Positions 13,507 through 62,257 of a stretch of 64,000 nt of DNA are shown here, in pieces (position 1 is the first letter of the stretch; every line of letters begins with the position of its first letter). The DNA lies in NCBI RefSeq assembly GCF_012843675.1, contig NZ_JABAFO010000003.1:1-64000 (forward strand). The letters are read 5' to 3'. The notes under the pieces were generated by a model, which was not told the DNA's origin, searched no databases, and saw nothing but the letters and a program-made list of their open reading frames with translations. The position numbers and the translations under genes were made by a program. The stretch is from Lactobacillus sp. MRS-253-APC-2B. GTDB lineage: Bacteria; Bacillota; Bacilli; Lactobacillales; Lactobacillaceae.

Positions 13507-13582
13507 TTATCCACAGATTTTCAACGATTTATTCACTTATCCACAATAAAAAGCATCCACTGTGGATAAGTGGATGCTTTTT
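13507..13582. other. DnaA-box group and dnaN terminator
   Basis: Three perfect DnaA boxes: TTATCCACA at 13507-13515 and 13537-13545, and TGTGGATAA at 13561-13569. The third box is exactly the 9-base loop of the dnaN terminator hairpin, whose 13-bp arms are 13548-13560 and 13570-13582 with the U-tract on the minus strand. The rest of the dnaN-yaaA gap (13379-13506) is AT-rich and holds nothing else I can name. Being close to dnaN, these boxes probably form part of an extended oriC. Confidence 0.85.
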
Positions 13583-13598
13583 CAACAGATTTAACTGA

Positions 13599-14738
13599 TT
13601 AGTAAGTCCGGACTGGCGTAATCAACTGAACAAAGTTGGCTTTTTCTTCAGTTGGAACCAACGTAAATGGCCGCAGTGCCGTCGTAAACGAAATCAAAAT
13701 CTTAGTCTGGCCAAACGACTTCAGTGCATCACGCATGTAGTCAGGGTTGAATGAGATTTCCAAAGGGTTGCCCACAATCTGATCAGCATTGATTTCTTCT
13801 TCAACGTTACCCACATCAGCTGACGTTCCAGAAACCGTGGCAATCTTGTTTTCTGGGTTGACAGTCAGCTTAACGACATTGTTGCGACTTTCATGAGACA
13901 GCAGTGAGGCCCGCTCGATTGATGCCAATAGGTCACTGGCCGTAATTTCGAGACGCGTATCGGACGTTTCCGGAATCAGACGGCTGGTTTCTGGATAATT
14001 GCCTTCCAACAGACGTGAGTAGAAATGAGTATTGCCAAAAATAAACAATGCTTGATTTTCCGTAATCTGCATTTTAACGCCATCTTTTTCATCACTGATC
14101 ATTTTTGCCAGTTCCGTCATGGATACCCCCGGCAAAACGATATCAAAATCAAGCCCTGCCGTTTCTGGTAATTCAACCTTACGTTGTGCCAACCTGTGAC
14201 TGTCCGTAGCTACCGCCGTCAAAACACCATTGTTCAGCATAACGTGAATCCCAGTCAAAATTGGTCGACTTTCTTGCTTGGAAACGGCAATCCGTGTTTG
14301 GTCAATAACTTCACGCAGCATGTCAGAAGCCAGTTCAACCGTATTTTCGCTTTCAACTTCTGGCAGGTGTGGATAATTGTTGGCATCCTGACCATTAATG
14401 GTAAATTCCGCCGTCCCTGACGTGATCCGTACCTGCAGACCATTAAAGACTTCAATCGTTGCCTGCTTGTCCGGCAGCTTTTTGATCACTTCGTTAAAGA
14501 AGCGAGCTGGCAAAACGATTGCCCCAGGTTCTTCAATTGACAACCCATAGTTGCTGTCAGCAGCCTCTAAGGTTGATTCGATCGTAATGTCAGCATCACT
14601 ACCCGTCAAAATAACACTGTGATCCGTTACGACCATCTTCAGACCAGTCAGAATTGGAATCGTAGTTTTGGATGAGATTGCTCGTAAGACATTATTGAGC
14701 TGATTAATAAAGGCTGGACGATTGATGGTAAATTTCAT
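13599..14738 (-). CDS. dnaN: DNA polymerase III sliding clamp (beta subunit)
   Basis: 379 residues, the expected three-domain clamp. It starts MKFTINRPAFINQLNNVLRA and contains the KPILTG-like segments TIPILTGL and RPILTGIHV that recur at domain boundaries. The C-terminal strands end in QLITPVRTY, the typical MPMR-like tail region. The dimeric ring encircles DNA and tethers polymerase. Start at ATG 14738 has an AAGGAGAG ribosome site. A TATAAT-containing AT-rich region upstream may serve as its own promoter besides read-through from dnaA. Confidence 0.98.
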   Translation of the reverse strand: MKFTINRPAFINQLNNVLRAISSKTTIPILTGLKMVVTDHSVILTGSDADITIESTLEAADSNYGLSIEEPGAIVLPARFFNEVIKKLPDKQATIEVFNGLQVRITSGTAEFTINGQDANNYPHLPEVESENTVELASDMLREVIDQTRIAVSKQESRPILTGIHVMLNNGVLTAVATDSHRLAQRKVELPETAGLDFDIVLPGVSMTELAKMISDEKDGVKMQITENQALFIFGNTHFYSRLLEGNYPETSRLIPETSDTRLEITASDLLASIERASLLSHESRNNVVKLTVNPENKIATVSGTSADVGNVEEEINADQIVGNPLEISFNPDYMRDALKSFGQTKILISFTTALRPFTLVPTEEKANFVQLITPVRTY

Positions 14739-14759
14739 AAGTGAATCTCTCCTTGTTGC

Positions 14760-14901
14760 TTTATATATATTATATAAACTTTAGTAGTAGTAATAGGACC
14801 TGTGGATAATGTGGAAAACCACGAGAAATGTTGTTAGATTAAGCTTTCATAACTGTGGAAAAACTGTGGATATCTTGGGGATAACTTTTGATTTTTCCAC
14901 A
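14760..14901. other. oriC unwinding region (dnaA-dnaN gap)
   Basis: From right to left: near-consensus DnaA boxes at 14893-14901 (TTTTCCACA) and 14865-14873 (TGTGGATAT); tandem boxes 14810-14818 (TGTGGAAAA) and 14801-14809 (perfect TGTGGATAA); a GACC clamp at 14797-14800; five triplets TAG-TAG-TAG-TAA-TAG at 14782-14796; then an AT-only stretch 14760-14778. This is the same order of parts as the Bacillus subtilis basal unwinding system, where DnaA loads from the boxes onto trios in the melted strand. The function is inferred from that match. Confidence 0.88.
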
Positions 14902-14902
14902 A

Positions 14903-16213
14903 TCAGGGCTGCAGCTCCATTCTAAGGTTGCGAATGTCATCTTGTAGATTATCGTCTTCTGCCAACTGATTTTCAATCTTATCAATGGCATGCAGCACCG
15001 TCGTATGATCCTTGCCGCCAAACTCCTTGCCGATTTTTGGCAACGAGCTTTCGGTCAGCTCGCGGGCAAGGTACATGGCAATCTGACGCGGAAAGACGAT
15101 CTGCTTGACGCGCTTTTTACCCACGATATCGGACTGACGAATATTATAATAGGCCGCAACCTTTTTTTGAATCAAGTCGATCGAAACAACCGCCTCATCG
15201 GCAGCCTCCATTCCCTTGAGCGTTTCATTGGCTAGGTCAATCGTGATGGGCGTGTGGTGAAGCTGGGCCGCCACGCGTACTCGTAGCAATGCACTTTCAA
15301 GCTCGCGGACATTGGTGTCGACCTTGCTGGCAATAAAGCTTAAAACGTCATTGGGAACGTTGATCTGTTCTTCTTCGGCCTTACTGCGTAAAATGGCCGT
15401 CCGTGTCTCCAGATCAGGTGACGTAATCTCAACGGGAACGCCCCAGACGAACCGTGAAACCAAACGATCCGTCAAATCAGGAATCTGCTTTGGGTTGCGA
15501 TCAGCAGTCAGCACGATCTGCTTGTTGTTGTCATGCAATGAATTGAAGGTATTGAAAAATTCCAGCTGCGTTCCTTCCTTATTAGAAAAGAACTGGACAT
15601 CATCCACCAATAAGGCATCCAGATCACGATACTCGCGTCGAAACTGTTCTTGATTATTATTTTTGATGGAATTGATGTAGTCATTAGTGAAGGTTTCACT
15701 GGTGACGTATTTGATTCTGGCATTGGGATTATGCCGCAGCATGTTATTGGCAATTGCCTGCATGAGGTGAGTCTTGCCCAGTCCTACTCCGCCATAGATT
15801 AGCAACGGATTATAAAGTCCGCCGGGTTGTTCAGAGGCTGCGTAGGCCGAGGCATAGGCCATCTGATTACTACGACCCTCAACGAAGGCCTCAAATGTAT
15901 ATTCAGGATTTAAGGGTGTTTGTTTGGTCATATTGCCGCCAGTTGGTGAAGGCGGGGTTAATAATTCTCTCTCAAGCGTATAACGCGGCTCAATGTGGAC
16001 CAGCGTCTCATTAAAAAGCAGGTCCTTGAGCTTGTCAGTCATTTCATTTTGCCAAAAGTCCCGGTGTGATTTGGTGGGCAGCTCAATGGTCAGTTGATCG
16101 TTTTCGAGAGAAATTGCTTTAGCTGGGGCGATCAGGTTGTTATAGGTTACGCTGCCAGTAGTTTTGCGAAACTCCTTTTGAACCGATTCCCAGAGAGAGT
16201 TTAGCTCAATCAA
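14903..16213 (-). CDS. dnaA: Chromosomal replication initiator DnaA
   Basis: 436 residues, normal. Domain I (about 1-80) binds DnaD- or helicase-type partners. Domain II is a short linker. AAA+ domain III has Walker A GGVGLGKTHLMQAIANN (about residue 143) and Walker B ALLVDDVQFF. Domain IV ends with the DNA-binding signature GKEFGGKDHTTVLHAIDKI. The start is TTG at 16213, chosen for the GAGGAGG ribosome site 8 bases before it. An extended -10 (TGCTAAAAT, 16251-16259 complement) lies upstream with a DnaA-box-like TGTGGAAAA close by, fitting autoregulation. Confidence 0.98.
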   Translation of the reverse strand: MIELNSLWESVQKEFRKTTGSVTYNNLIAPAKAISLENDQLTIELPTKSHRDFWQNEMTDKLKDLLFNETLVHIEPRYTLERELLTPPSPTGGNMTKQTPLNPEYTFEAFVEGRSNQMAYASAYAASEQPGGLYNPLLIYGGVGLGKTHLMQAIANNMLRHNPNARIKYVTSETFTNDYINSIKNNNQEQFRREYRDLDALLVDDVQFFSNKEGTQLEFFNTFNSLHDNNKQIVLTADRNPKQIPDLTDRLVSRFVWGVPVEITSPDLETRTAILRSKAEEEQINVPNDVLSFIASKVDTNVRELESALLRVRVAAQLHHTPITIDLANETLKGMEAADEAVVSIDLIQKKVAAYYNIRQSDIVGKKRVKQIVFPRQIAMYLARELTESSLPKIGKEFGGKDHTTVLHAIDKIENQLAEDDNLQDDIRNLRMELQP

Positions 16214-16250
16214 GTAAATTCCTCCTCAAGGTAAATAAAATCCAAAGAAT

Positions 16251-16570
16251 ATTTTAGCATCGATAGTCATAGTTTTCCACAAGGCTGTGTAAAAACTATT
16301 AACAAAATCCACAGACGTGTTGATAACTTTTCCACAGGCCTGTGGATTTGTGGAAAAGAAATAGTAAAAATAAAGTTAATCACTGGCAATCTGTGGATAA
16401 CTTCAGAGAATAAAAAGTGGTTTAATCATGTTTTCATAGTTATCCACAATCCTGTTGATAACTTTTTCCACAACCTGTGGGGAACTGTTTTTGCTTTGGA
16501 TAACTCTGTGGATAAATTAAAACATCCCTAGTTTTCCCATCATAACTGTGGAAAAAACTGGGGATAACTA
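16251..16570. other. oriC DnaA-box cluster (dnaA-rpmH gap)
   Basis: Perfect boxes: TGTGGATAA at 16392-16400 and 16507-16515, TTATCCACA at 16440-16448. One-mismatch boxes: TTTTCCACA at 16273, 16328 and 16464; TGTGGAAAA at 16349 and 16547; TTTGGATAA at 16495; TGGGGATAA at 16559. Boxes occur on both strands. This is the incA/B-like half of a bipartite Firmicute origin, with dnaA between the two halves. The dnaA promoter (extended -10 complement at 16251-16259) is embedded at the left edge. Confidence 0.92.
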
Positions 16571-60897: not shown

Positions 60898-60906
60898 GTG
60901 AGATGC

Positions 60907-61416
60907 ATGGCCAAATCAATTCAAGTTGAGCAAGGCGATATTACCACGTATCAAGTTGATGCCATCGTCAATGCCGCCAATACAACGCTGATGGGCGGTG
61001 GTGGTGTTGATGGAGCCATTCATCGTGCTGCTGGTCCGGCACTTTATGCAGCCTGTGAGCAGTTTCATGGCTGTCCGACTGGTGAGGCGCGGATCACACC
61101 AGGCTTTCAGCTGCCAGCTAAATATATCATTCATACGCCAGGACCAATCTGGCGTGGCGGACAAAATGGCGAGCCCGAACTACTGGCTGCTTCATATTGC
61201 AATAGTCTGAAATTAGCTGAGCACTATCACTGTCGAACGGTTGCTTTTCCATCGATCAGTACGGGTGTCTATGCGTTTCCCGTTGAGCAGGCGGCAGCCA
61301 TCGCGATTAAAACGATTCGTGAATTTATGGCAGCCAGTCGATGGGTTCAAGAAGTCATCATGGTGGCTTTTGACCCTAAAACTGAGGCCGCCTATCAAAA
61401 AGCATTGTCAATATGA
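60907..61416 (+). CDS. Macrodomain ADP-ribose hydrolase/binding protein
   Basis: 169 residues from ATG 60907; the AGGTGAG ribosome site covers the pepO stop, so the GTG at 60898 is not used. Macrodomain motifs are VDAIVNAANTTLMGGGGVDG and FPSISTGVYAFPVEQAAAIA, the ADP-ribose loops of the MacroD/YmdB type with the catalytic-loop Asn, Gly-rich and Asp residues. Such proteins remove ADP-ribose from aspartate/glutamate or deacetylate O-acetyl-ADP-ribose. Coupling to a peptidase is not an obvious pathway. Confidence 0.92.
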   Translation: MAKSIQVEQGDITTYQVDAIVNAANTTLMGGGGVDGAIHRAAGPALYAACEQFHGCPTGEARITPGFQLPAKYIIHTPGPIWRGGQNGEPELLAASYCNSLKLAEHYHCRTVAFPSISTGVYAFPVEQAAAIAIKTIREFMAASRWVQEVIMVAFDPKTEAAYQKALSI

Positions 61417-61419
61417 AAG

Positions 61420-61453
61420 AAGACCCCTGGTTGGACAAGCCAGGGGTCTTTTT
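61420..61453 (+). terminator. Terminator of pepO-macrodomain operon
   Basis: AAGACCCCTGG (61420-61430) pairs perfectly with CCAGGGGTCTT (61440-61450), then T. Confidence 0.88.
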
Positions 61454-61522
61454 GAAACAGAGTAGAAATCAGTATGGTGTAGGTTAAAGTGACTGAACCT
61501 GAGCGGACGATTCAGATTCAGT

Positions 61523-61573
61523 TCCCCACTTATCCACAAGATGTTGTGGATAAGTGGGGATATCTGTGGATAA
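61523..61573. other. Distant DnaA-box cluster with 17-bp inverted repeat
   Basis: Three perfect DnaA boxes within 44 bp: TTATCCACA (61530-61538), TGTGGATAA (61545-61553) and TGTGGATAA (61565-61573). The first two form a perfect 17-bp inverted repeat (61523-61539 and 61544-61560) with a GATG loop. The second and third start exactly 20 bp apart. No T-tract follows, so it is not a plain terminator. The rest of the 61454-61747 gap holds no gene, and I see nothing else in it. About 45 kb right of dnaA. Confidence 0.88.
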
Positions 61574-61747
61574 CCCACAATATCTTGTGCCACTAACCTG
61601 CAACGTCATTTAGTATAACGAGATCAAAATCAGTTCGCAAGCCGCAAGTTTCCGATTGATCAACTGACTATTTCAGATTAAGCCGCTCAATCAAGCCTTA
61701 AGCCAGCCAAAGAAATTTTATGGCATTCCTGCTGATACGGATTTGAC

Positions 61748-62257
61748 TTAATTGACTTCATCGGGGTTAACTTTAACGGAAACAATCTTAACTCGGTATT
61801 CTCCTTGAGGTGCCGTAACCATTGCAAAATCATCGACACCCAGACCAGTGATTGCCTTGCCAAGTGGTGAGTCAAAAGCCAGCTTACCTTTTAAGATATC
61901 GGCTTCTTGGCGGCCAACCAGCGTATAGGTCTCGGTCTCATCATCATCGTCATACTGCAGCTCAACCGTGGATCCCATGCCGACTTTACCCGTATCTTTA
62001 GGCGTGATGACCTTAGCATAAGTCAGCTGCTTGTTTAGATAGCGCAGTCGGCTTTCTAGGTGCCGCAGCTCCCGTTTAGCAGTACTGTACTCAGTATTTT
62101 CAGAAAGATCGCCCAGTGCCCGAGCGGCCTTGAGACGAGCAATTTTTTCGGGGCGCTGCTTTTTAAGGGTTTCAATTTGATCTTCAATTTGGCGGTAGCC
62201 AGCAGCTGTCATTTCTTGATAGTAGAAGTCTGGTACCTTGATTTTTTTGGATGGCAT
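61748..62257 (-). CDS. Transcript cleavage factor GreA homologue
   Basis: 169 residues, about a dozen longer than typical GreA because of an N-terminal extension (MPSKKIKVPDFYY). The coiled-coil tip reads ALGDLSENTEYSTAKRE with the acidic residues (D and E) that hold catalytic Mg2+ in the polymerase channel. The C-terminal FKBP-like domain contains LAFDSPLGKAITG. GreA rescues backtracked RNA polymerase. Lactobacilli often have a second greA elsewhere, so this may be the paralogue. GGAGG precedes ATG 62257. No terminator recognised downstream. Confidence 0.9.
   Translation of the reverse strand: MPSKKIKVPDFYYQEMTAAGYRQIEDQIETLKKQRPEKIARLKAARALGDLSENTEYSTAKRELRHLESRLRYLNKQLTYAKVITPKDTGKVGMGSTVELQYDDDDETETYTLVGRQEADILKGKLAFDSPLGKAITGLGVDDFAMVTAPQGEYRVKIVSVKVNPDEVN

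Follow-up and report, generated by a model that had tools for sequence, protein, structure and literature searches.

What is a group of three perfect DnaA boxes doing in a short non-coding gap far from the replication origin? The question is raised by a stretch of 64,000 nucleotides of the Lactobacillus sp. MRS-253-APC-2B genome (the window; positions 1 to 64,000 of contig NZ_JABAFO010000003.1), in which the gap at 61417-61747, between the ends of two convergent genes, carries three perfect copies of TTATCCACA. The original prediction saw here a regulatory element that restrains initiation. We found that the DnaA-box cluster is real and specific to the L. mucosae lineage. By analogy with the clusters outside oriC in Bacillus subtilis, the element is best explained as a lineage-specific DnaA sink that would restrain initiation, a reading to which we give a probability of about 0.65.

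DnaA boxes and palindrome in the macro-domain/greA gap

The local architecture had been predicted correctly: there are three perfect 9-mer boxes in non-coding DNA, two of them within a 17-bp perfect inverted repeat and the third 20 bp on (Table 1). This last spacing separates the starts of boxes 2 and 3, which are in tandem on the minus strand, and at one mismatch or fewer these three are the only boxes between 60 and 62 kb. The comparison involves three genomes, namely the window's own (G000), a one-contig relative (G003), and L. mucosae (G021). In the two relatives the inner 14-bp arms of the palindrome are the same as in the window's genome, while its centre is different in all three, and the TTTTCCACA form taken by their third box is also frequent at the window's oriC. 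Since the macro-domain and greA-like genes are convergent, the gap is the promoter region of neither, and the boxes are not explained by a neighbouring promoter.

Table 1. Coordinates of the features in and around the macro-domain/greA gap and at the origin (window positions)
Feature	Position	Strand	Remarks
dnaA (context)	14903-16213	-	PF08299 (DNA-binding domain) and PF00308
Perfect oriC boxes, dnaA to rpmH (context)	16392-16515		
Macro-domain protein gene (flank)	60898-61416	+	PF01661
Hairpin with T-run at the end of the macro-domain gene	61417-61453		Terminator-like by eye, both strands
Conserved block around the boxes	61461-61640		Alignment of G000 with G003 and G021
Perfect inverted repeat with boxes 1 and 2	61523-61560		Arms 61523-61539 and 61544-61560, 17/17 bp, 4-nt centre
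DnaA box 1	61530-61538	+	TTATCCACA; perfect in G000, G003 and G021
DnaA box 2	61545-61553	-	TTATCCACA; perfect in G000, G003 and G021
DnaA box 3	61565-61573	-	TTATCCACA in G000; TTTTCCACA in G003 and G021 (L. mucosae)
CCACAATATCTTGTG, degenerate second copy of the palindrome core	61575-61589		Identical in G000, G003 and G021
Promoter-like site TTGCGA-17-TATACT	61612-61640	-	Reads leftward through the boxes; prediction only
greA-like gene (flank, convergent)	61748-62257	-	PF01272 and PF03449

A perfect 17-bp palindrome between convergent genes resembles a terminator stem, and no terminator is seen on the minus strand from greA to the palindrome. The element might accordingly be a mere RNA hairpin, at a transcript end or in the 3' UTR of greA or the macro-domain gene, with an accidental likeness to DnaA boxes. 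We rejected the palindrome as an intrinsic terminator: it is followed by no T-run on either strand, and the sole terminator-like site of the scan (61565-61579) does not use its stem. The macro-domain gene is already ended by the hairpin at 61417-61453, which was not among the sites reported by the terminator/promoter scan, and two perfect boxes with a tandem third are very unlikely to arise by accident. An RNA hairpin as the whole explanation is, in our judgement, highly improbable.

Distance and difference from the origin

From the position of the oriC boxes, the cluster lies about 45 kb from oriC in the window, as had been predicted, and the distance is the same in G003. A DnaA-box cluster in a gap could in principle mark a second or backup replication origin. 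However, the AT content of the greA gap is 0.57 and reaches at most 0.70 in 40 bp, as against 0.68 and 0.85 in the dnaA-dnaN gap, which also holds TAGTAGTAG. Compared with the dnaA-dnaN gap, the greA gap has neither an AT-rich unwinding element nor a TAG-trio; it is therefore not an origin, and this reading is scarcely credible.

The origin region has features of its own. Near the dnaN end, three perfect boxes lie within 63 bp (13507-13595 of the window), and a terminator-like hairpin (AAAAAGCATCCAC / GTGGATGCTTTTT) has as its loop exactly the box at 13561-13569. A DnaA-trio-like repeat, TAGTAGTAG (14782-14790 of the window), stands beside AT-rich DNA between dnaA and dnaN.

Rarity and grouping of DnaA boxes

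Perfect boxes number 13 in the window, whereas 100 shuffles averaged 0.36. When all 9-mers of the window that use three or more different letters are counted, only TTATCCACA has a trio of non-overlapping copies inside 60 bp, and it forms such triples at two places (13507-13561 and 61530-61565). The draft genome that we scanned (1,979,598 bases in 54 contigs) has 21 perfect boxes and 7 matches to the same pattern read backwards; the laxer pattern TTWTCCACA occurs at 46 sites across it. These boxes are not scattered as random clusters, the outcome that would have spoken against the original prediction. Tight groups are found at only three places in the assembly: at dnaA/oriC (13507-16555), in the greA gap, and upstream of rlmH (C45:128516-128783). 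Outside these groups, the only sites less than 500 bp apart are a pair separated by 331 bp (C1:71324 and C1:71655). The statement that no other perfect group exists outside the origin gaps thus holds for the window but not for the genome, with its four boxes upstream of rlmH. By the background rate, 5e-8 to 1.5e-6 triples as tight as that in the greA gap are expected per genome. A chance origin of the triple is ruled out by the shuffles, the genome-wide box list, and this expected number.

Conservation of the cluster

A pattern search recovered the greA-gap cluster in 3 of 41 genomes of the genus (G000, G003, and G021), with one genome per species compared; G021 is identical to L. mucosae DSM 13345 over 3,024 bp. 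The conservation in relatives that had been anticipated is therefore present within the L. mucosae group and is narrow. When the conserved DNA served as the query, six of 50 genomes gave matches, and in three of these (G006, G017, and G035) the match covers only the palindrome and lies elsewhere in the genome. The greA neighbourhood was read in 30 of the 41 genomes, and absence in the other 11 comes from whole-genome searches. The macro-domain gene is present at 3 of 27 further greA loci, and elsewhere in the genus the gap mostly does not exist.

Identity to G003 and G021 is 85-92% over 61461-61622, 77% over 61623-61683, and 48% over 61684-61747. This profile indicates that selection acts on a stretch of about 160-180 bp, which extends past the boxes. 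For the flanking genes, identity to the relatives is 47-55% at fourfold sites and 81-83% over the whole gene, a whole-gene value that the block exceeds only modestly. G003 and G021 are themselves 97% identical over 3 kb, which makes this in effect one comparison of two lineages. A small protein was considered and rejected: all three genomes keep a 41-codon frame open on the minus strand, yet it is not coding-like, since nine codon changes between G000 and G003 alter the residue and two are silent.

Since conservation reaches past the boxes, a small transcript is possible. Transcription would start from the leftward promoter at 61640-61612, run for about 190 nt, and end at the terminator-like hairpin 61453-61417; the RNA would contain several stems, and DnaA, bound beyond the start site, would act as a repressor or roadblock. 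Several observations are consistent with such a unit. Conservation drops near the promoter-like site, whose -35 and -10 hexamers are both identical in the three genomes; a minus-strand stem (columns 126-136 with 146-156) stays paired despite one-sided changes, and one further base pair has changed on both sides. Against it, the alignment holds two independent lineages only, the covariation term, at +0.68, is not favourable, and a number of outer pairs do not hold. By eye on the alignment, the minus-strand RNA of the relatives would also lose the outer pairs of the palindrome. The scan found 1 promoter-like site where shuffled sequences gave a mean of 0.6, and the full block has no further copy among the 50 genus genomes. 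We also rejected a known RNA family for the block: no Rfam match reached the gathering level, the best being miRNA-type hairpins far below it that match the hairpin. A transcription unit of this kind is unlikely, although it is the leading alternative to a sink.

Proposed DnaA titration compared with known systems

Under the preferred reading, all three boxes, the opposed pair as well as the tandem third, would be bound by DnaA, probably in a cooperative manner. With only 45 kb to oriC, the greA-gap site would be duplicated soon after initiation and would then hold extra DnaA, and this titration would lower the free DnaA pool and restrain re-initiation, presumably alongside the rlmH cluster, which lies about 24 kb to the other side of oriC in G003. 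The retention of boxes 1 and 2 while the palindrome centre changes argues for a sink, as do the identity of the block relative to the fourfold sites and the presence of a DNA-binding domain in the window's DnaA. Against it, there are only three boxes (at one mismatch or fewer), the cluster occurs in the L. mucosae group alone, the flanking genes as wholes are nearly as conserved as the block, and conservation extends beyond the boxes, which titration alone does not need.

The closest known systems are in B. subtilis, where six clusters lie outside oriC; a strain lacking all six initiates early, and restoring one cluster at various places partly relieves this, according to the passages seen of two sources (PMC5295017, PMC13220808). 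The clusters, which those sources and a third trace to Okumura 2012, are termed inhibitory because they sequester DnaA (PMC11019786, in part). In the portion consulted of another paper, they are not all near oriC, and six strong regions outside oriC hold 4-11 sites by a laxer matrix (PMC4447404). Like them, the greA gap holds a short intergenic group outside oriC with several boxes close together. It differs in its locus, its fewer boxes, its perfect palindrome, and its restriction to one group, and its binding by DnaA is a prediction. The locus thus adds to an already known kind of element, DnaA-box clusters outside oriC. If DnaA does bind the greA gap, titration as a means of controlling initiation would be found in lactobacilli as well as in B. 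subtilis.

The original prediction had named datA and DARS of Escherichia coli as parallels beside the B. subtilis clusters. The likeness to the latter, whose joint removal advances initiation according to the excerpts seen, is supported, while control of the DnaA nucleotide state, as at datA and DARS, has the opposed boxes as its sole support. If titration is right here, datA would share with the greA gap the property of a DnaA-box locus outside oriC that restrains initiation. In the sections seen, however, datA acts through ATP hydrolysis and combines five boxes with an IHF site, and its minimal form has three boxes with the IHF site (PMC5295017, PMC10380432), as against three boxes at one mismatch or fewer in the greA gap.

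In a DARS-like element, opposed boxes would bring two DnaA molecules together for nucleotide exchange, and initiation would be stimulated rather than restrained. The box order here is + - -. In the part of the source at hand (PMC10380432), a DARS core consists of boxes I and II, placed head-to-head, and a stimulating box III, and DARS1 and DARS2 share with the greA gap three boxes of which two are opposed. However, DiaA, Hda, Dam, SeqA, IHF, datA, and DARS are listed together as lacking in B. subtilis in the passages of a review (PMC13220808), and control in that species is described, again in excerpt, as acting on DnaA binding (PMC5295017). Within the family, opposed pairs with varying spacing are also seen at rlmH and oriC, and the geometry is therefore not special. 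Nor could the arrangement be lined up with the E. coli boxes: at two mismatches or fewer, boxes I-III were not assignable in two regions of E. coli MG1655, and we accordingly make no claim on geometry. We give a DARS-like function little chance.

An older cluster upstream of rlmH

The cluster at C45:128516-128783 lies between rlmH and htrA, and its four perfect boxes include TTATCCACAGAAATTGTGGATAA and an opposed pair. Within 550 bp upstream of rlmH (514 in one genome), at least one perfect box is found in 40 of 41 genomes of the genus and at least two in 39 of 41, with a total of 196 boxes upstream and 0 in the 550 bp downstream. The exception, G028, is a one-contig record that resembles a string of coding sequences placed end to end in sense orientation, nearly devoid of intergenic DNA. 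As this record is faulty and useless for non-coding work, the usable count is 40/40, with 1 to 6 perfect boxes per usable genome.

In the family, an opposed pair 1-12 bp apart occurs in 54 of 301 genomes, and the backwards control gave none. We read 30 of these 54 loci: 23 are beside rlmH, 2 beside htrA only, and 5 beside dnaA or dnaN. Across the class Bacilli, among the best 30 of 58 matching genomes, at least two perfect boxes lie within 700 bp upstream of rlmH in 12, from nine families, a number that counts the window's own family, just as the 30 loci include the window's genome. The same loci have one perfect box in 4 cases and none in 14, with totals of 41 boxes upstream and 1 downstream. 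The rlmH cluster is older than the greA-gap cluster, and it is common to the whole genus and part of Bacilli. The two are alike in being near oriC and in having an opposed box pair in the window's genome. They differ in that the rlmH cluster is present in all usable genus genomes and sits upstream of a gene.

One-contig G003 (2,356,337 bases), which starts with dnaA, has its rlmH cluster from 23,535, and its greA-gap cluster is located on the opposite side of oriC, at a distance of 45 kb from it. The window's own draft has the two clusters on unjoined contigs, so their relative placement is taken from G003.

We take the yydA gene of B. subtilis to be rlmH. The region upstream of yydA is among the eight strongest DnaA-binding regions of B. 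subtilis (PMC4447404, in part), and yyzF-yydABCD is listed as DnaA-regulated in the extract seen of another study (PMC8203912). Given this regulation and its place upstream of a gene, the rlmH cluster may act on transcription too. Several Gram-positive htrA genes adjoin rlmH, in a source whose passages at hand leave DnaA boxes there unmentioned (PMC12826053). Our literature search, outside which most subscription papers lie, returned no paper joining 'DnaA boxes' with 'rlmH'; within the portions of the sources that it covered, it did not contradict the earlier belief that the greA-gap element was undescribed in lactobacilli. A cluster found genus-wide and in part of Bacilli would be a more general finding than the one in the greA gap.

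A second cluster in the neighbouring group

G017 (L. coleohominis) carries TTATCCACAAGATCTTGTGGATAA between a nucleoside hydrolase gene, which it follows, and a TPP riboswitch (RF00059), which it precedes; the hydrolase is PF01156, as tested on the protein of the relative G006. A perfect box lies within 450 bp downstream of this gene at 8 of 27 loci (G006, G008, G010, G012, G015, G016, G017, and G035), and the three L. mucosae-group genomes have no box in that interval. These 27 come from 30 loci read among the matching genomes, three having been dropped because the gene start was not located. The nucleoside hydrolase protein tree, built on this one gene with 27 rows and rooted at the midpoint, recovers the L. 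mucosae group as one clade (100/99). Its neighbour is a group of 11 rows (84/90, below the starred level) that contains all 8 carriers and 3 non-carriers, and the other 13 rows, including G028, are non-carriers.

G006 shares a run of 22 identical bases with the greA-gap palindrome, and the cores of the two clusters are nearly the same. The nucleoside-hydrolase palindrome may reflect relocation or a separate origin, two histories that look alike in these sequences. One could imagine that Limosilactobacillus species pair an ancient rlmH sink, which other Bacilli share, with a second one that is exchangeable and differs in location from one sister group to the next: the L. mucosae group would have it in the greA gap and the neighbouring group downstream of the nucleoside hydrolase gene, perhaps because the palindrome was relocated. 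For the former group, this second sink would also lie inside a small DnaA-gated transcription unit reporting the initiator level. We regard this combined scheme as quite unlikely. The genus nevertheless offers a natural comparison, in which the rlmH cluster is present in all usable genomes and a second cluster varies between groups or is missing, and which allows the number, position, and neighbours of DnaA sinks to be asked about.

The palindrome TTATCCACAANNNNTTGTGGATAA occurs in 96 stretches of the genome contig collection, many of them from Chryseobacterium and Rubrobacter, and its centres are of 40 kinds when strand is disregarded.
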